Positions 47,780 through 63,773 of a DNA stretch of 64,000 bases are shown one piece after another. Location: the NCBI RefSeq assembly GCF_021390495.1, contig NZ_JAJEJP010000002.1, positions 1,426,001 through 1,490,000 on the forward strand, given 5' to 3'. Every line of letters begins with the position of its first letter. The first letter of the stretch is position 1. The notes beneath the pieces were generated by a model that made no database searches, was not told the DNA's origin, and worked only from the letters and a program-made list of their open reading frames with translations. Source of the DNA: Paraburkholderia sp. ZP32-5 (GTDB lineage Bacteria > Pseudomonadota > Gammaproteobacteria > Burkholderiales > Burkholderiaceae). Both the position numbers and the translations under genes were made by a program.

Positions 47780-49476
47780 TGTCTGTAGTGGCTATATCCT
47801 AATGTCGTGTTCTGGCCATTTAGAAATGTCGTGTTTTGACCTCGGTATGCTTGCCGGTTCCTCATGGCGCTATGGAGACGGCGATGCATCCCGCGACCCT
47901 GGTGACATTGAACATGCGCGAACTCGACCGGCTGAAGGTCATTGAGGCCGTTGCCGACATGGGCCTCAAGCCTGGTCGCGCGGCCGAACGCCTGGGCTTG
48001 ACCGTACGTCAGGTTGAGCGCCTTGTGATCCGCTACTAGGAATCCGGTGCAGCGGGACTGGCCTCGCGCAGACGTGGCCAGTCCGGCAACCGGAAGCTGG
48101 ACGAAGGACTGGCCCAGCAGGCGCTGGCGATCATCCGTGAACGCTACGCCGATTTTGGGCCGACACTGACCTGCGAGAAGCTGCGGGAATGCCACGGCAT
48201 CCGGATGGCCAGGGAAACGGTCAGGCGGCTGATGACAGACGCCGCTCTGTGGATACCACGCCGGCAGCGGCCGCCGAAGATCTATCAGCCGCGGGCGCGT
48301 CGTGCGTGTCTGGGCGAACTGATCCAGATTGATGGCAGCGATCACCGGTGGTTCGAGGAACGGGCGCCGGCCTGCACACTGCTGGTTTACGTCGACGATG
48401 CGGCCAGCCGGCTGATGCATCTGCACTTCACGGCGAGCGAATCGACCTTCAGCTATTTCGAGGCGACGCGGGCGTACATCGAATGCCACGGCAAGCCTGG
48501 CGCGTTTTACAGCGACAAGGCGAGCGTGTTTCGCAGTGGCAAGGCCCATGAAACGGGAAGCAGCTTGACACATTTCGGCCGGGCGATGTTCGAGCTGAAC
48601 ATTGACACGTTCTGCGCGAACAGCAGCTCAGCGAAGGGTCGCGTCGAGCGCGCCCACCTGACGCTGCAGGACCGACTGGTGAAGGAATTGCGACTGCGCG
48701 CAATCAGCACGATCGTCGAAGCCAATGCGTATGCGCCCTCCTTCGTGGCGGCCTACAACGCACGCTTCGCGAAGCCGCCGAAGAACGATTTCGACGCGCA
48801 CCGGCTGCTGCGGGGTGACGAGAATCTCGACCTGCTGATGACGTGGCGCGAGACGCGACGTGTGACGAAATCACTGACCATTCAGTACGACCGCGTAATG
48901 TACCTGCTGGATGACACGCCGGAGAACCGGAAACTGATCCACCGCTACATCGACGTGTGGGAGTACGCGGACGGGCGCATCGAGATCCGCGCAGATGGCC
49001 GGGTGTTGCCGAACCGGCAATACGACAGGCTGGCCGAAATCGACCAGGGCGCGATCGTTGAACATAAACACCTGAGTCACGCGCTGCAGGTCGCGCAGGC
49101 GATCCAGGCGCAACGCGATAACCGGCGTATCTCCGGCTCGCCCTCGCGCACGAACCAGGGACAACCGGTTCGGGCAACGGAACGCGCGCAAGGCACGAAG
49201 AAGCAGCGTGAATTCACCCAGGACGACATCAACGGCGTGATCACGGAACTGGCACAACGAAGGCAGCCGAACCAGACACGCAAACCTGGCGGTCGGTCGG
49301 CAGGACCTGTCTGAACGGACTGACACGCCCTGCCCGTTCACGCGCTGTCCTTCAACACTACGTGAGATTCAAACCGTTAAAGACTGAGTCAAACTCAACG
49401 TCAAAACCCGACATTTCTAAATAGCTGCCGCTACGACATCTTGAAATGGCCCCGACATTGTCTGTAGCGGCTATTT
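47780..49476 (+). mobile_element. IS1202/ISNCY-type insertion sequence
   Basis: The element carries a transposase pseudogene and complex inverted ends. The left end has TAATGTCG and AAATGTCGTGTTTTGAC; the reverse complement of the right end has AATGTCGGGGCCATTT, AGATGTCG and AAATGTCGGGTTTTGAC, so repeated ATGTCG boxes occur at both ends. Outside them, TGTCTGTAGTGGCTATAT (47780-47797) and TGTCTGTAGCGGCTATTT (49459-49476) are direct repeats, 16/18 identical, probably a long target duplication or related flanks. Exact ends are uncertain by about 20 bases. Confidence 0.7.
47884..49314 (+). pseudogene. IS1202/ISNCY-type transposase interrupted by one amber codon
   Basis: From ATG 47884 the frame reads an HTH (MRELDRLKVIEAVADMGLKPGRAAERLGLTVRQVERLVIRY), hits TAG at 48037-48039, and continues in the same frame as ESGAAGLASRRRGQSGNRKL, then RERYADFGPTLTCEKLRECHG. 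The DDE domain follows: CLGELIQIDGSDHRWFE (first Asp), HLHFTASESTFSYFEATRAYIECHGKPGAFYSDKASVF (second Asp) and ELNIDTFCANSSSAKGRVERAHLTLQDRLVKELRLR (Glu in RVERA). Everything except the one stop looks intact, so the damage is recent, or suppression or restart at 48205 would be needed for activity. Confidence 0.85.
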
Positions 49477-49583: not shown

Positions 49584-49734
49584 ATGGAACCCACGATCAT
49601 TGCCATCGACCTGGCCAAGCGCGTTTCCAGCTTCACTATGTCGAACCTGAAACCGGCGCGATTCACAGCAAGGTGCTCAAACGCGCGCAGCTTGTGCCGT
49701 TCTTTGCTAACCGGTCATCGAGCCGTGTCGTCAT
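49584..49734 (+). pseudogene. IS110-family transposase N-terminal stub
   Basis: ATG 49584 with AAGGAG upstream starts MEPTIIAIDLAKR, the RuvC-like DEDD first-Asp motif of IS110 transposases. Around 49621-49630 one base is missing (GTTTCC for an expected GTTTTCC), after which the +1 frame continues FQLHYVEPETGAIHSKV, then LKRAQLVPFFANRSSSRVVM. The match stops abruptly at 49734, where a monooxygenase gene on the other strand begins. Only about 50 of some 340 residues survive. Confidence 0.75.
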
Positions 49735-50281
49735 GCTCTGCACTGCGGACGAACCGGTCCCGACGATTCCGATGCGTTTGCCGCTCAGGGAAAGCTCAAG
49801 ATCCCATTGGGCGGAGTGCACGACAGGGCCGGCGAACTCGTCTAGCCCTTCGATCACAGGGAAGCGTGGGACGCGCAATCGCTCAACCGCCCCAATAACA
49901 ATATCTGCGTGAATTTCCTCGCCATCCGCTGTGTTGAGCAGCCACTCCCTTCCGACCAATTCCGCAGCGATGACGTCAACCCCTAACCGAATGTGATTGT
50001 CGATCTCGAATCGCGTCGCGATGTTCCGGAAGTAGTCCGACGGCTGAGCACCTGTCGCGAAGGTGCTCGTCACAGTGGTGTTAGGAGCAAAAGGATAGCA
50101 ATAATATTGCGTCGGCACGTCGCACGCTACGCCGGGATATCGATTGTCCCGCCAGATCCCGTCGACGGACTGCGCTTTCTCCAAAATCTGAAACGTCGAA
50201 ATGCCCATTTTCCCTGAGCCGGATGCCCATCCGGATCCCGGCTGCCCCTGAGCCAATGATGACAATTCTCTTGTTAGTCAT
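49735..50281 (-). pseudogene. Baeyer-Villiger/flavin monooxygenase, truncated and frameshifted
   Basis: Starts at ATG 50281 (MTNKRIVIIGSGAAGIRMGIRLRENGHFD). A one-base shift near 50188-50197 moves reading to another frame: FQILEKAQSVDGIWRDNRYPGVACDVPTQYYCYPFAPN. It proceeds through SDYFRNIATRFEIDNHIRLGVDVIAAEL, the BVMO fingerprint FAGPVVHSAQWD (F-x-G-x3-H-x3-W-D, intact), and the second Rossmann loop GKRIGIVGTGSSAVQS, where it is cut at 49734 by the IS110 stub. About 180 of 500 or so residues remain. It precedes a quinone oxidoreductase and a hydrolase on the same strand, so it was likely the first enzyme of that module. Confidence 0.78.
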
Positions 50282-56782: not shown

Positions 56783-57934
56783 TCATGCTGCAGAGGCACG
56801 CAAGTTCGTCTCCCTGTAGACCTCCATCTCGAACTCCATAAAAGTGTCGACGACAGCCGTATCGAAAAATGGGAGCAACTGCGTCATTAATACGCCGCCA
56901 ACTCCCTTTTTACGGTCCATCCAGAAGTAAGAGTTGAAAACGCCCGCCCAATCGGCAGACTTGGCGCTGCGCAGCCCTGGGATATCAGCTAGCGTCAGGT
57001 GAAAACCAAGACCCCAGCCCTGCTCCACGGGTGCGGCCGGCACGTCGTTCGACAGGATCGGAGCCGACGATTGCATAAGATCTGGCAGCGTGACTGAGCC
57101 CAGATGGTTCTCCAATGCCAAGTCAAGCGTTGCAGGCTCGAGGACACCTGGCGTTATGGCCAGCCATGCCTGAACCAGACGTCCGAAATCCTGCACGGTT
57201 CCGTAGGAACCATGCCCCCCTGCATCCCATTCAGGTGCAGGCGCGAGGTCAACTTCGGAGGGCGCGAGAGCACCATCCGTCCGACGCTGCATCACGCGCA
57301 GCAACTGCGCGCGCTGTACGTCGCTAGGCGCGAAGGTGGTGTCTTTCATGCCAAGCGGCCCGTAGACGTTTTCCTGCAAGTATTCGCTAAGGCGCTTTCC
57401 TGTGATGTTTTCGATAACGAGCCCGAGCCAGTCGGTGCTGACGCCGTAGGTCCACGCCGTACCGGGGTCGTTCACGAGCGGAGACATCAGACTGCGTCGT
57501 AGGCCCGTCATCGGTGTGGGCTCGCCCGTCACACCGTGATAATGCAGAAGCTTCTCGTTGAAGAAGAAGTACGCGAGGCCCGCGGTGTGCGTCATCAGAT
57601 GGCGCACAGTGGCGGCGATCGCCGGATCGCGCAGGCGTGGCTTGTCACCGTCAAAGCCGTCCAAAACCTGCAACTTGCCAAACTCCGGAAGGATGGATTC
57701 AACGGTCGTATCAAGTGCGAGAAGTCCTCGCTCCACAAGTTGCAGGGCACCCATCGTCACTGACGCCTTTGTCAGCGACGCGTTGCGAAACATCGAGCGC
57801 TCGCTTGCTTCGCCAGCGGCATGGTGAAAGATCTGACCATTACGGTCAACGACGACTGCCGCTATGCCGTGCACCGATCCGTTTGATGCGACTCTGTCGA
57901 GCAGGTTTCTGATTTTTGATCCGTCAAATGCCAT
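56783..57934 (-). CDS. Serine hydrolase, class C beta-lactamase/EstB-like
   Basis: 383 residues from ATG 57934 with AGGAG upstream; a longer frame to 58054 lacks a site. The active-site motif is Ser53-Leu-Thr-Lys56 (NASLTKASV), the tyrosine is in TAWTYGVSTDWLG and the last segment is WGLGFHLTLADIPG with GVFNSYFWMDRKKGVGG. It lacks a signal peptide and the KTG triad, so it is a cytoplasmic esterase/lactonase rather than a penicillinase. In front of a BVMO it would hydrolyse the ester or lactone that the BVMO makes. No gene lies in the 313 bases before the BVMO stop. Confidence 0.87.
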   Translation of the reverse strand: MAFDGSKIRNLLDRVASNGSVHGIAAVVVDRNGQIFHHAAGEASERSMFRNASLTKASVTMGALQLVERGLLALDTTVESILPEFGKLQVLDGFDGDKPRLRDPAIAATVRHLMTHTAGLAYFFFNEKLLHYHGVTGEPTPMTGLRRSLMSPLVNDPGTAWTYGVSTDWLGLVIENITGKRLSEYLQENVYGPLGMKDTTFAPSDVQRAQLLRVMQRRTDGALAPSEVDLAPAPEWDAGGHGSYGTVQDFGRLVQAWLAITPGVLEPATLDLALENHLGSVTLPDLMQSSAPILSNDVPAAPVEQGWGLGFHLTLADIPGLRSAKSADWAGVFNSYFWMDRKKGVGGVLMTQLLPFFDTAVVDTFMEFEMEVYRETNLRASAA

Positions 57935-58247
57935 GATGTCTCCTATTGCCTTCCGCAGTGCGCTGAGCGTAAATCTGCGGTATTGGCCTTGCGAGCCCAC
58001 GAACCGACGATTGATCCGAGAGGTCATCGCCCGATGTGGTCGGCGGTCGCCCATCTAACAGGGAGTACCTGACAAACCTACGGGAAGGTCAGGGGCCGTT
58101 AATGGCAAAGCTACGTTGGATGAAAGCGGGGCGGACATATCCACGTGCTGATATGCCCGGCCCAACCTTGGCAGCAACTATTCAATGGCAGCTGCAACAA
58201 CCCGATACAACGAGAGTGCCTCTTTATCGCCATGCAAGGCGACCAGC

Positions 58248-59900
58248 TCAACCGCGCCTCTTCCCGGTGATATCGAAACCTCTATAGTTTGCCTCGACGA
58301 CATCCGCGCAAATCTTGCGGTACGCTGGCGCGCCACCGACGTAGATCATCAGTACGCGTGGTTTGCCAGGAATGTTTGCGCCGTTGTATGCAGACTGCGT
58401 CGTCGGGAAAAGGGTGTGGCTTGCCACTTCCTGGATGTGCGCACCCCACTCCGCTTCCGCATTAGCACTCACTTCGAATGTCGTGAAGGCGTTCTTCTGC
58501 ATGTGCTCGATCAGGTCCGATGCAAACTCAACGTGATCCTCGATCGCAAGCGGGTTGTTGTAGATTGCAGCTGCGCTCTGAGGGCCCATCAGCATGAAGA
58601 GGTTCGGGAAACCATGGGCGGCCAATCCCAAATAGGTCTTCGGGCCATCCGACCAGCGCTCCGACAGTTTCAGGCCGTCTCGCCCTTCAATACCCAGGTT
58701 CAGCAGCGGACCCGTGAAGGCGTCGAACCCGGTCGCCAGGACGATGACGTCGAACTCGTACTCCGCGTCTTCCGTGCAAACGCCCTTTTCCGTGATGCAT
58801 TGGATCGGGTTTTTCTTGACGTCGACGAGCTTGACGTTGTCACGGTTGAATGCCTCGTAGTAGTTGCTTTCGAACGGCGGGCGCTTCGTGCCGTAGGCAT
58901 GGTCACGTGGCGAGAGGAGTTCCGCAACCGCCGGATCCTGTACGCGCTCGGCGATGCGCTCGCGAAGGTAGTCCGCCACCGTGTCGTTGGCTGCGCGATC
59001 AATGAGCAGATCTTGGAAGGTCGACGCGAGCATGCGGAAGCCGCCACCATCGTAGTAACGGTCGTAGACCGCACGACGCTCCTCAGCGCTCAGGGCCATC
59101 GCGGACTCCTGGGGCGGCTCATACGGTGCACCGATGAAGTTGTTGCGTGAAGCGTCGCGCAGTTCGTCGTAGCGACTGCGCACGTCGTCCATTTCCTCGT
59201 CGGTCATCGGAACGTTGCGCAGCGGCGCGGCAAAGTTCGGCGTGCGCTGGAACACGGTCAGATGCTTCGCCCGCTTGGCGATCATCGGAATCGCCTGAAT
59301 GCCGCTTGCGCCGGTGCCAATGATGCCCACGCGCTTGCCAGTGAAGTCCACCGGGGTATGCGGCCAGCGGCCGGTGTTGTATATATCTCCCTTGAATACT
59401 TCGGCACCCGGGAAGTCCTGCTCCTTCGGTACGGAGAGATTGCCCACACCTGAGATCACGAAGCGCGCCGTGCAGGTCTTCCCGTCGTCCGTCTCGACCG
59501 TCCAGTAATTGTTGACGTCGTTCCAGCGCATCGCGGTAACCTGTGTATTGAACTGGAAGCTGCGCTCCAGATCGAAGCGGGTCGCAACGTGCTGCAGATA
59601 CTCCAGAATTTCCGGCTGCGAAGCGAAGCGCTCGCTCCACTTCCATTCCTGCTGAAGTTCCTTGGAGAACGAAAACGAATAATGAATGCTCTCGAAGTCA
59701 CAGCGTGCGCCCGGGTAACGATTCCAGAACCACGTGCCGCCGACGCCCGAACCTGATTCGAAGGCCTGAACACGCATGTTCAGCTTGTCGCGCAACCGGT
59801 GGACGGCGTACAGCCCCGTAAATCCCGCGCCAATGATCACGACATCGTGATCGGTTGCGGCCGAGCGCGAAGCGCTCTTTGTGTTGAATTCGCTGCCCAT
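58248..59900 (-). CDS. Baeyer-Villiger monooxygenase (cyclohexanone-monooxygenase-like)
   Basis: 550 residues; ATG 59900 is favoured over the ATG at 59903 because the GGAG spacing is better. FAD loop VVIIGAGFTGLYAVHRLRD (about 20-38), GGTWFWNRYPGARCDFESIHYSFSF, then the BVMO fingerprint at 169-180: FKGDIYNTGRWP. Here the fingerprint His is Asn175 (F-x-G-x3-N-x3-W-P). The second Rossmann loop is GKRVGIIGTGASGIQAIPMIA (about 188-208), and VIVLATGFDAFTG and SERWSDGPKTYLGLAAHGFPNLFMLMGPQS follow. NADPH- and O2-dependent insertion of oxygen next to a ketone is expected. First gene of the module after its regulator. Confidence 0.92.
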   Translation of the reverse strand: MGSEFNTKSASRSAATDHDVVIIGAGFTGLYAVHRLRDKLNMRVQAFESGSGVGGTWFWNRYPGARCDFESIHYSFSFSKELQQEWKWSERFASQPEILEYLQHVATRFDLERSFQFNTQVTAMRWNDVNNYWTVETDDGKTCTARFVISGVGNLSVPKEQDFPGAEVFKGDIYNTGRWPHTPVDFTGKRVGIIGTGASGIQAIPMIAKRAKHLTVFQRTPNFAAPLRNVPMTDEEMDDVRSRYDELRDASRNNFIGAPYEPPQESAMALSAEERRAVYDRYYDGGGFRMLASTFQDLLIDRAANDTVADYLRERIAERVQDPAVAELLSPRDHAYGTKRPPFESNYYEAFNRDNVKLVDVKKNPIQCITEKGVCTEDAEYEFDVIVLATGFDAFTGPLLNLGIEGRDGLKLSERWSDGPKTYLGLAAHGFPNLFMLMGPQSAAAIYNNPLAIEDHVEFASDLIEHMQKNAFTTFEVSANAEAEWGAHIQEVASHTLFPTTQSAYNGANIPGKPRVLMIYVGGAPAYRKICADVVEANYRGFDITGKRRG

Positions 59901-60013
59901 CATGTCTCCTTGCGTTACTGAGAATTAGCGTCCGGCGGACCGTTTGCTGAGTTTGTCCTTGCGGAATCGTTGGAGATACCGTGACGGGATTCTGCCTCGG
60001 CAGTCGGCTTTTA

Positions 60014-60053
60014 GATTGACTTAAGGCGCAATAAGGTTGACATTACGCGCAAC
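60014..60053 (-). promoter_or_regulatory. Tandem AraC operator upstream of the BVMO gene
   Basis: On the minus strand two direct half-sites TGCGCGTAATGTCAA and TGCGCCTTAAGTCAA lie 22 bases apart, about 110 bases before the BVMO start. 33 of 40 positions match the copy before the AraC gene (61710-61749). Two 15-base half-sites about two helical turns apart is the usual AraC-dimer layout, and at this distance from the start it fits activation. Confidence 0.65.
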
Positions 60054-60703
60054 TCGCTGCCGATGGCTTTGGTTCAGATTGAGGTTGGAAGAGAGACCCG
60101 TAGGGAATGCGAGCTATCTGAAGTGAGAACGCACGGACCGCCTGATAAATCGGTCAGCCGGCGCCAGAAATGCCGCTCCAGATTTATCCGGTGTCGAGGG
60201 GAAACAAAGATGCACAACAGATGCAACTAGAACTTCATGGATGTGAGTTTGGGCCGAACCCAGACCTATACTCTTAGGCCACGTGTTTTCCAACGATCGA
60301 ACAGTTGTGCGTGCGACACATAGAGCCCGCGCGGCAGCCCGTAAATTACGTGTACCTGCTGGTCAGCGCTCTTCAAAGGGGTTGTCTCGATGTCATCGAG
60401 GTCGGGTGTCTGTCATCACCAACGCGCCCGTCAGTAGACGGTTCAGCTTGCGAGGCAACGCGTTCGATCTTTGTGTCACTGTAACTCTCACTTAGGTGAG
60501 CAGCTATGCAGCAGGCTAACGCGTTTCACTCATATCAAGATCGAAAGAAAACTCTCGATTGTCTCGCCGCGAATGAACGGATCGCCAATGTCGATCACGT
60601 CATCCTTATCCGGAGGTGGTCCCCGCTGACAACCCAAACCCAAAGCTTCTTGATCTCAACCTAAGCGGCCCTGAGACAGAGCGGAAACCGATTCTGACGC
60701 CAT

Positions 60704-61693
60704 CTATCTGACACTCGTTGGCGACTTTCCGTACCAACGACGAAACGAACGACTCAGCGCACTTGTCTCCGAATAACCCAGGATCTCTGCAATCTCAGAC
60801 ACGTCGAGGCTCGAATCCCGCAGATACTTCATTGCCAGATCCGCGCGCACGGCATCCTTGAGCTCCTTGAAACCCGCGCCAAGAGACTGCAGATGCAACT
60901 GCAACGTACGTGGCGCCATGCCCATGGCCTGACTAACGTCTGCCAACGTGCACGGCCCGTATGGAATCATTACCCGCATAGTGGCGTCGACCTGATCGAT
61001 GAGCCCGGCATCGGGAGATCCCTCCTCGCTTCGAAGGATACGGGCCAGCAGAGTGCGTGTTCGAGACCCCGCGGAGCGTAGCCGAGTGTCAAGAACCGCA
61101 TTTTCAAGGAAGATCCCGTTGAACTCCTGATCGAACAGAACATTCGGGCCGAATACCTTCTGATGTGTCTTGATATCCCGCGGCTTGGAATGCCGAAAGT
61201 AGACCCGCTTGGGCTCCCACTGGCTCGGTGCATGCGACCTGAGATCCGTGCATGTCACCGCGAGTGAGTACTCCGCAACCTGAACGTCACGGCCTCCTGC
61301 TCCTGGCAACGCTGTCCACGTCAGCAACTGACCGCCCGGCTGCCGAGTGAGCGACATATCGACATCTCGCGTGTAGATGTTGAAGTGGTTCACCAGGTCT
61401 TCAACCATCTGCCCGATCGTCTGCGCCTGCCGAAGCAGGATCCACAAGGGGCCAAGCACGGCCATGTTCGCCCGGCTTGCCATGAGTAGCCCGAAATTTC
61501 GACATCGGAACTCCGCGGCAACATACTCATAGAACTCGAATATCTGTGAAACGAGTACGGGCAGATCGGGATCAGTCAATGTGCGGAAATCGAGTCCGAC
61601 AGCGTTCGCCACTTCTTTCGCGTCGCCGCCGAGACCCTCGATCAGAGGAATTGACCCCACAAGGGCTGAACTTCTGACGTAGTGACCGGGCAT
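60704..61693 (-). CDS. AraC-family regulator of the BVMO module
   Basis: 329 residues from ATG 61693 with GGAG upstream; an ATG at 61747 would add 18 residues across the operator. The N-terminal arabinose-binding-like domain includes IPLIEGLGGDAKEVANAVGLDFRTLTDPDLPVLVSQIFEFYEYVAAEFRCRNFGLLMA and DLVNHFNIYTRDVDMSLTRQPG. The C-terminal double HTH is MRVMIPYGPCTLADVSQAMGMAPRTLQLHLQSLGAGFKELKDAVRADLAMKYLRDSSLDVSEIAEILGYSETSALSRSFRRWYGKSPTS. It is 803 bases before the BVMO gene on the same strand; that gap holds the operator at 60014 but no gene. Confidence 0.88.
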   Translation of the reverse strand: MPGHYVRSSALVGSIPLIEGLGGDAKEVANAVGLDFRTLTDPDLPVLVSQIFEFYEYVAAEFRCRNFGLLMASRANMAVLGPLWILLRQAQTIGQMVEDLVNHFNIYTRDVDMSLTRQPGGQLLTWTALPGAGGRDVQVAEYSLAVTCTDLRSHAPSQWEPKRVYFRHSKPRDIKTHQKVFGPNVLFDQEFNGIFLENAVLDTRLRSAGSRTRTLLARILRSEEGSPDAGLIDQVDATMRVMIPYGPCTLADVSQAMGMAPRTLQLHLQSLGAGFKELKDAVRADLAMKYLRDSSLDVSEIAEILGYSETSALSRSFRRWYGKSPTSVR

Positions 61694-61709
61694 GACGCTC
61701 TCCGCAGGA

Positions 61710-61749
61710 ATTGCGCGTAATGTCAACAAAAATGCGCGTAAAGTCAATC
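61710..61749 (+). promoter_or_regulatory. Tandem AraC operator upstream of the AraC gene
   Basis: Half-sites TGCGCGTAATGTCAA and TGCGCGTAAAGTCAA, 22 bases apart, on the plus strand, 17-56 bases before the AraC start. The first 17 bases after position 1 are identical to the BVMO copy. The direct repeats point away from the AraC gene, opposite to the arrangement at the BVMO gene, as expected for self-repression there or activation of a transcript towards 61.8-62.2 kb. Confidence 0.65.
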
Positions 61750-62195
61750 CGTAATTTTACGATCGATGCAGAATCCAGCCCAGAGTACCCTTGTCATGCA
61801 GTGACTTCGGGCTTTATATCTTTCCGAAATCGCCCGCACTTGCCATTGCTGCCCTAGTCCGCGCACTCGTGTACTACGCGGTGATGGTCATGTACGCGAC
61901 ACGGCCTGCCATTAAAAGCACATTGCGGGTTTGGAACCAGGAGATCTATGCCGTTCGTCCATGCTTCAGCCTGGCGCTGTGAGCCTCCGGCTCGTTATCT
62001 GAATTCTCGTCGATTCACCGCTTGCCGTCTGATCCTGTCGATTCAACGAGGTGGCTGCATCCTAACGTCCGGTATGCGCACGAGCAAATGCTTTGCGAGC
62101 AGAGTCCGTGACACGAGATGCCCAAGCTATCTACAGTCAAACGGTTTCTCCAAAATTCGCCATCTTATTAACGTCATGCCATCGAGCACTGGACC

Positions 62196-63773
62196 ATGTT
62201 CAAGAACAACCTGAAAGCTGTCATGACGCACCTTCCGGGTCTCAGTCTGAAGCAGCGATTGAGCTTGGTGTTTGTGCTGCTCGCATTGATGACAATCGTC
62301 ACAGCAGGGATTGGAATCCAGGGGATCCTGCAGGCAAATGAGCACAGCCAGTACACGTTCGAGAAACTTACGAAGCCAGGTCAGGCGATCGAAAGCTCGT
62401 ACATCACGACGCTGGTCGAGGTAATCCAGTTGATGGAGGCCATCAGTGCTTCGGATGCGGCGACGCGCAATGATCGACTCGATCTCATTGAAAAACTCCA
62501 GAAGGACAGTGATGAAGAATTCAACCGATTCGTTGCGAACGAGAAGGCGATCACCATCCAGCCAATTGTCAATGATGTACTACGTGATCACGAGAAATTC
62601 CGGCAGGCTTTCCTGAAAGCAGTGCAACTGTTTCAGGCGGGCAATGTAGATGCAGCGCTGTCCGCTGAAACGGATGAGGTCCGCCCGTACGGTGTCTCGC
62701 TCTTCCAAAGTGTCGTGAAGCTAAGTGCGATGCTCCGCTCCGAGGCCGAGATTGCCAACGAACGCAACGTGCAGTCGTACTATCGTATGATGACGATGAT
62801 GGTGTCCGTTGTTGTCGGCGGCCTTCTGATCGTGGGTACATATGGTTGGAAGCAGCTGCAGACGACCGGTCGAAACATATCCGGCATCGAGGACACCCTT
62901 CAATCCATCGCCCATACGCTTGATCTAACCAAACGCGCGCCAGTTGAGCGTATGGACGAAATCGGCCGCGCGGCCACGGCATTCAACGAGTTGATCCACC
63001 AGTTCACCGGATTGATCTCACAGGTCAAAACGACTGCAAGCGCGGTGGGCACTGCCACGCAGGAAATTGCGACTGGTAACCTCGATCTATCTGCACGCAC
63101 CGAACAGCAAGCGGCGTCGCTCGAAGAAACGTCGGCAAGTATGCGCGAACTGCTCGATCGCGTGAAACAGAATACAGAGAACGCACAACAGGCCAACGAA
63201 CTTGCAATCACGGCGTCTGAGGTCGCGATGAAAGGCGGACAGGCTGTGTTCCAGGTCGTAAGCACGATGTCGGCGATCACCGCTTCGTCCGGCAAAGTTG
63301 TGAACATCATTAGCCTGATCGAGAGCATTGCCTTCCAGACTAACATCCTCGCGCTGAATGCAGCAGTCGAAGCCGCTAGAGCCGGCGAACATGGCAGAGG
63401 TTTCGCCGTTGTGGCGGGAGAAGTGCGCTCGCTCGCGCAGCGCTGTGCCACTGCTGCGAAAGACATCAAAACGCTCATCGATGATTCGGCCGAGCAGGTC
63501 GGCCGCGGAAGTGCTCTCGTGGACAATGCAGGAAAGACTATCGACGAAGTTGTGTCACGCGTTCGACACGTCGCTTCGATTATGGGTGAGATCAGTCTTT
63601 CGTCCCAAGAGCAAACATTAAGCCTCGATCAAATCGGCACAGCAATGTCACAGATCGATGGCGTCACACAACAGAACGCGGCATTGGTTGAAGAAGCAGC
63701 CGCCGCAGCGAACGCGCTGAACGATCAGGTCACCGAGCTTGATCATGCAGTGGAAGTATTTAGATTGACATAG
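62196..63773 (+). CDS. Methyl-accepting chemotaxis protein
   Basis: 525 residues from ATG 62196 (ATG 62223 is possible). Membrane helix 1 is LSLVFVLLALMTIVTAGIGIQGIL; a four-helix-bundle periplasmic sensor follows to a second helix MMVSVVVGGLLIVGTYGW near residues 200-220; then HAMP-like ISGIEDTLQSIAHTLDLTKRAPVERMDEIGRAATAFNELI, and a signalling domain with the hairpin tip IESIAFQTNILALNAAVEAARAGEHGRGFAVVAGEVRSLAQRCATAAKDIK. Methylation helices surround it. The C-terminal NWETF-type pentapeptide is absent. The ligand is unknown; the BVMO substrate is a speculative candidate from position alone. 61750-62195 upstream shows no gene. Confidence 0.92.
   Translation: MFKNNLKAVMTHLPGLSLKQRLSLVFVLLALMTIVTAGIGIQGILQANEHSQYTFEKLTKPGQAIESSYITTLVEVIQLMEAISASDAATRNDRLDLIEKLQKDSDEEFNRFVANEKAITIQPIVNDVLRDHEKFRQAFLKAVQLFQAGNVDAALSAETDEVRPYGVSLFQSVVKLSAMLRSEAEIANERNVQSYYRMMTMMVSVVVGGLLIVGTYGWKQLQTTGRNISGIEDTLQSIAHTLDLTKRAPVERMDEIGRAATAFNELIHQFTGLISQVKTTASAVGTATQEIATGNLDLSARTEQQAASLEETSASMRELLDRVKQNTENAQQANELAITASEVAMKGGQAVFQVVSTMSAITASSGKVVNIISLIESIAFQTNILALNAAVEAARAGEHGRGFAVVAGEVRSLAQRCATAAKDIKTLIDDSAEQVGRGSALVDNAGKTIDEVVSRVRHVASIMGEISLSSQEQTLSLDQIGTAMSQIDGVTQQNAALVEEAAAAANALNDQVTELDHAVEVFRLT

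Follow-up and report, generated by a model that had tools for sequence, protein, structure and literature searches.

Two 40-bp tandem sequences, one on either side of an AraC-family regulator gene in Paraburkholderia sp. ZP32-5, are likely to be the cognate operators of the protein encoded between them, which would activate transcription from one of them (site A) and most likely limit its own synthesis at the other (site B). Both lie in a stretch of 64,000 nucleotides, called here the window (contig NZ_JAJEJP010000002.1, positions 1,426,001 to 1,490,000). An orphan catabolic regulator would thereby gain a defined two-site regulon and a candidate inducible promoter. Otherwise the control described is of an ordinary bacterial sort, and we regard the pair as a real local two-site regulon whose layout is of the already known XylS/Pm-like class II kind.

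The two sites and the genes around them

Site A (60014..60053, minus strand) lies 5' of a gene for a Baeyer-Villiger monooxygenase (BVMO), and site B (61710..61749, plus strand) lies 5' of the AraC gene. The positions and the identity of 33 of 40 bases in register, both given in the earlier note, were confirmed; the runner-up ungapped 40-bp match to site A within the window has 23/40. The differing orientation of the two sites also holds: the motif is read on the minus strand at A, the strand of the BVMO gene, and on the plus strand at B, away from the AraC gene and opposite to it. Each site consists of two direct half-sites of 15 bp separated by 6 bp, all of them exact matches to the motif. 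Reading toward the BVMO gene, the distal and proximal half-sites of A occupy 60037-60051 and 60016-60030 on the minus strand, while those of B occupy 61712-61726 and 61733-61747 on the plus strand. The presence of two direct half-sites per site was thus borne out, and their spacing, given earlier as about 22 bases, is corrected to 21 bp from start to start (60016/60037; 61712/61733).

The half-site motif TGCGCSTWANGTCAA has four exact matches in the window, all of them in the two tandem pairs. When up to three mismatches are allowed, 20 matches are found versus a shuffle mean of 19.7, which is the chance level, and therefore the signal is the exact tandem pair. In the genome as a whole (9,090,529 bases, four contigs), pairs with at most three mismatches in 22 fixed positions occur twice, both of them exact, and the backward-read control gives one match. 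Single half-sites with at most one mismatch number 12 versus 17 in the control; being neither rarer nor commoner than this noise, they carry no information, which resides only in the pair. Since the scan recovers A and B as the genome's only two tandem pairs, it rules out, within its sensitivity, the genome-wide repeat family raised earlier as a counter-explanation. About 18 kb to the left of the window (G000:C2:1407870-1407884) there is one more exact half-site, TGCGCGTAACGTCAA, which lacks a partner at 21 bp. A tandem scan of 144 genus genomes, our own included, with at most two mismatches gave one further match (G093, two mismatches) and one in the control.

The regulator (330 aa, 60704..61696, minus strand) combines an N-terminal PF12625 domain (104.6 bits, cut-off 27.6) with HTH_18 (62.5 bits, cut-off 33.6), and HTH_AraC is also scored above its cut-off (28.3 versus 26.6). 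Its first methionine (MPGHYVRS) aligns with relatives beginning M-x-G-x-[YF]. The start codon is thereby fixed at 61696, and site B falls outside the coding region, on its upstream side, even though the site is traversed by a longer frame starting with TTG. About 650 bp past the stop codon of the regulator lies site A, and its predicted target is the gene of a type I BVMO (551 aa, 58248..59903, minus strand; Pfam FMO-like), whose nearest solved structure is phenylacetone monooxygenase, with strong similarity over the whole length (E 3e-180). The fingerprint of type I BVMOs is FxGxxxHxxxW(P/D). Here the corresponding segment, FKGDIYNTGRWP at residue 170, has N in place of H at residue 176, whereas, of 26 relatives whose fingerprint could be read, 20 have H and none has N, so that BVMO activity is not certain. 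The adjoining gene for a beta-lactamase-fold esterase (56783..58054, minus strand; AcmB-like, below the equivalog cut-off) is a possible second gene of the BVMO transcript.

To the right of site B, the first recognisable gene encodes a methyl-accepting chemotaxis protein (62196..63773, plus strand). The three small frames in between have no convincing Pfam match (best E 0.0092, below the cut-off and implausible) and the gap has no Rfam RNA match; a lost gene in this interval was accordingly rejected as a candidate. Farther to the left, a 200-aa FMO/BVMO-like frame at 49663-50265 looks like a second, fragmentary monooxygenase gene.

The same design beside related regulators

The flanks of genes for distant relatives of the regulator were scanned with a weight matrix built from only the four half-sites of the window. 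With 26 of 32 loci used (the six related loci L084-L089 were dropped), the scan over periods peaks at 21, where the mean best score is 9.3 and nine of the 26 loci reach at least 11.5; at the control periods of 14-20 and 22-31 the means are 3.6-6.1, and between zero and three of the 26 loci reach this score. In a different locus set, leaving out L084 and L086-L089, 10 of 27 loci reach the threshold; with 200 matrices whose columns had been permuted, 0.78 loci did so on average and never more than 4. Distant 1060-bp windows of the relative loci reach it in 2 of 142 cases. For 17 sites, all from outside the window, a sigma-70 -10 matrix that played no part in choosing them peaks exactly 21 nt past the proximal half-site: the mean score at this distance is -0.49 versus -5.7 overall, 8 of the 17 sites exceed 1.5, and none of 5000 rotations is as high. 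These 17 were taken from 19 listed sites after L104 and L107 had been omitted as chance-like (L107 scored 11.8), and L086-L089 were also dropped. Since two sites were omitted by choice and the threshold of 11.5 was fixed after a first look at the scores, the figures are strong but not blind. The 15-site consensus and 13 hexamers were picked by hand after the scan, two of the hexamers one base earlier, and their invariance is therefore partly by construction.

Thus a subset of PF12625 relatives carries beside their own genes the design of half-site, 6 bp, half-site, 21 nt, and -10-like hexamer. At 12 of the 32 loci of AraC relatives, including the nearer relatives L083 and L084 (34% identical to the regulator), there is no site of at least 7.5 bits. 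The assignment of the operators to the AraC protein, made earlier from position and from known AraC dimer binding, thereby gains a basis beyond position alone, as a good part of its distant relatives have the 21-bp tandem design beside their own genes. In nine loci (L009, L055, L090-L095, and L103) the operator lies, as site B does, on the opposite strand and close to the regulator, whose first matched codon follows after 11-33 bp; in L097 it is likewise on the opposite strand, 68 bp before this codon, and in L085-L089 the distance is 219-337 bp. Operators past the regulator gene and codirectional with it, like site A, are found in L008, L097, and L103. The design rule could help to predict operators and targets of other PF12625 regulators, few of which have mapped sites in the consulted parts of the open-licence PMC literature. 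Operons lying in the direction of such an operator in L108, L110, L112, and L113 have a product beginning M[HQ]FLDDSL, which resembles a beta-keto acid cleavage enzyme; its gene starts about 600 bp beyond the operator in L108 and L110.

Promoter layout and proposed regulation

The sequence GCAGAATCC is common to sites A and B at offset +58; among 20,000 pairs of 70-bp segments drawn at random from the window, 0.06% share a run of at least nine bases at equal offset. Each site can thus be described as half-site, 6 bp, half-site, 21 nt, and -10-like hexamer. At site A, the candidate -10 element of the BVMO promoter (CAGAAT, 59989..59994, minus strand) is located 21 nt past the proximal half-site, at the distance enriched at sites of the AraC relatives, and the BVMO ATG follows 85 nt beyond it. 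At site B, the candidate -10 element of a rightward promoter (CAGAAT, 61769..61774, plus strand) is at the same 21 nt. If the spacer is taken as 17 bp, the final 2 bases of the proximal half-site also belong to the -35 hexamer (61746-61751 at B); the -35 sequence is not consensus-like, and neither is the -10 sequence on the regulator strand. A scan for consensus promoters found none at site A or B. The core of site B ends 15 bp ahead of the regulator ATG, so the regulator's own promoter must be in or beside the operator. A candidate core promoter inside site B (TTGACT, 17 bp, GACATT; 61719..61747, minus strand), which was not recovered by the consensus scan, may serve here, the second hexamer agreeing at only 3/6 positions.

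In the proposed mechanism, each 15-bp half-site would take one regulator monomer, the two being arranged head to tail and 21 bp (two helical turns) apart; given a spacer of 17 bp, the half-site nearer the gene would overlap about 2 bp of the non-consensus -35. From this overlap we infer that the regulator activates in the reading direction of the motif (class II, as XylS at Pm). At site A, the ligand-bound regulator would then switch on the BVMO gene and perhaps that of the adjoining esterase; activation of the BVMO gene from this site, as proposed in the earlier note, fits the class II spacing. At site B, the regulator would sit 15 bp from its own ATG, over its own expected promoter, and would most likely limit its own synthesis. 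The self-repression suggested earlier is therefore plausible; it is deduced from the overlap, and like binding, activation, and ligand control it belongs to what we infer, whereas the computation establishes the two sites, how unique they are, the recurrence of the 21-bp design beside relatives, and the distance to the -10-like hexamer. To this a possible rightward promoter at site B is added, since the orientation of the site and the class II spacing of its -10-like hexamer suggest a divergent promoter.

What site B chiefly does can be read in two other ways. It may only repress the regulator gene, the rightward -10-like sequence being coincidental or left over from a divergent gene since lost, and this possibility, though not the one we favor, has to be taken seriously: B ends 15 bp before the ATG, a close divergent gene is absent, and in L103 an operator at the corresponding position is followed by a poor hexamer (TGAGAA), while no divergent gene is annotated at that locus. 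However, a 9-bp run identical at equal offset is rare in the random pairs cited above. Alternatively, B would mainly be a second activated promoter directed rightward, which would bring the chemoreceptor gene (62196-63773) into one regulon with the BVMO gene and link chemotaxis with catabolism, the effects on the AraC gene being secondary. We consider this doubtful. The hexamer of A recurs at B at the same distance, and among the relatives the operator and its -10-like hexamer are followed by a divergent gene 35-83 nt on in L009, L055, L091, and L092, while a divergent gene is annotated in L097. Yet the 421 nt between the -10 element of site B and the chemoreceptor start contain no recognisable gene or Rfam RNA, a consensus-like promoter match lies closer to the chemoreceptor (62108-62137, one of two listed, at chance level), and the chemoreceptor matches listed in 59 genomes span its signalling part only. 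In L090, L093, L094, and L095, the first open reading frame by the same rule is 214-521 nt off or absent. The divergent genes of the relatives being so mixed, a divergent promoter is frequent without being a general rule, nor is the gap of 421 nt unique.

The assignment of A and B to this regulator, which we prefer, also has to be set against two further explanations. As 63 first-look candidates for the regulator were found in the genome, many paralogues are likely and another AraC-family protein could bind both sites; this is very unlikely, because the genome's only two tandem pairs flank the present gene and variant sites are found next to the genes of the relatives themselves. Chance, or a recent duplication of DNA with no regulatory meaning, would accord with two copies only, 1.7 kb apart. 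But it is extremely improbable, as the likeness is limited to functional positions (the flanks of A and B match at 41/120 and 45/130, a second figure to which the shared -10 run contributes) and the same design is met again next to related regulators.

A more far-reaching model, which we put forward as a speculation and think unlikely, would unite these elements: one regulator would serve two outward class II promoters, from A to the BVMO gene and from B to the chemoreceptor gene via a long leader, with occupancy of B shutting the nested regulator promoter, and a subset of PF12625 regulators would act under one rule (half-site, 6, half-site, 21 nt, -10). If true, a single switch would govern both the movement toward a substrate and its oxidation, and PF12625 operators and their targets would be predictable from sequence.

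Known systems and provenance of the regulon

At the Pm promoter controlled by XylS, the gap between repeats is 6 bp and the overlap with the -35 element is 2 bp; the N-terminal domain of XylS differs from that of the regulator described here. In operators of this type the proximal repeat abuts the -35 and keeps a fixed distance to the -10; at A and B a -10-like hexamer lies at a constant 21 nt from the proximal repeat, but the -35 is not consensus-like. The available part of a paper on XylS/Pm (AraC/XylS family, TOL plasmid) describes two direct repeats of 15 bp with 6 bp between them, in a passage that is also readable as the gap between boxes inside a repeat (PMC5481539). The same excerpt supports a further likeness in the head-to-tail activator dimer beside the RNA polymerase site and in the catabolic target (PMC5481539). 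In contrast, the TGCA and GGTA boxes of the XylS repeats are absent here, the half-sites having the form TGCGC...GTCAA; the operator would thus work like that of XylS/Pm but is not a XylS site.

Within open-licence PMC papers, as far as their accessible text goes, the nearest prior report we found of such repeats beside a PF12625 regulator concerns SlfR of the Psychrobacter plasmid pP62BP1, for which the same two Pfam domains and TTGA(N6)AGGACA direct repeats at the slfC and slfR promoters are reported (PMC3346939). According to the part of that paper at hand, repeats of this type also precede SlfR homologues and were likened to XylS sites (PMC3346939). Reverse-complemented, they read TGTCCT(N6)TCAA, which is the GTCCC...GTCAA form seen beside AraC relatives in this study; the SlfR system, however, comprises alkyl-sulfate genes, whereas here a BVMO gene is involved.

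Among solved structures, the best match of the regulator is VirS of Mycobacterium tuberculosis (8rcx, E 3.5e-27, residues 7-328, both domains), which, in the accessible section of the source, controls a BVMO operon, mymA (PMC13234193). There the operon diverges from the regulator gene and its promoter is described in the virS-mymA intergenic region, whereas in our case both genes are on the same strand and the BVMO gene lies past the 3' end of the regulator gene. GliR and QhpR, PF12625-type AraC regulators in NCBIfam, are detectable relatives, with scores below the family cut-offs (109.1 bits versus 570 for GliR; 183.2 versus 250 for QhpR, NF049968). In the passages available, GliR is an activator whose motifs either precede the -35 or overlap it (PMC8151288), and these motifs, YYGGCGHTDTYSGMC and GGAYAWCGCCG, are unlike sites A and B. 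An AraC-type regulator is also on record, in an excerpt, for the monooxygenase gene almA, with BVMO activity in one species (PMC11784139).

The best relative of the regulator among the genomes examined has 37% identity. Relatives with 75% and 71% identity (P0002 and P0003) are encoded on short metagenome contigs of 3,362 and 4,734 bases, and those on plasmids have at most 32% among the matches listed. With the best 5-15 candidates per genome scored, 398 family and 369 class genomes yielded closer relatives in our own genome only, the same was true at 1e-38 in 266 class genomes, and 15 of 141 genus genomes had relatives at 1e-38; with this limit on candidates some relatives may have been missed. 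BVMO relatives are found in 22 of the 141 genus genomes, at 27 loci besides our own, and are at most 51% identical. The motif expected before BVMO orthologues is absent upstream of these 27 relatives, so that one of the refuting conditions named in the earlier note partly applies; over the 27 loci, the best match has 6-9 mismatches of 22. The weight matrix reaches 11.5 at four of the 27 loci, always downstream of the BVMO gene and three times in one related group; a weaker match (11.1) is upstream of the BVMO relative in L015. As the BVMO relatives do not exceed 51% identity and only two of the 27 regions have an AraC relative, weak in both cases, they offer no true orthologous pair for comparison.

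The GC content is 54-61% over 40001-64000 versus about 64% just before, which suggests imported DNA. Together with the absence of the site upstream of the BVMO relatives of the genus and the scarcity of AraC relatives there, this drop makes the regulon look like a local arrangement, probably an imported one. In the same region, a 369-aa frame at 48205-49314 is DDE-transposase-like by eye and has no Pfam match at 0.001. Finally, in L007 and L010, two loci of distant AraC relatives, a BVMO-like frame is located on the same stretch (110.7 and 216.1 bits), and the AraC/BVMO neighbourhood may thus recur.
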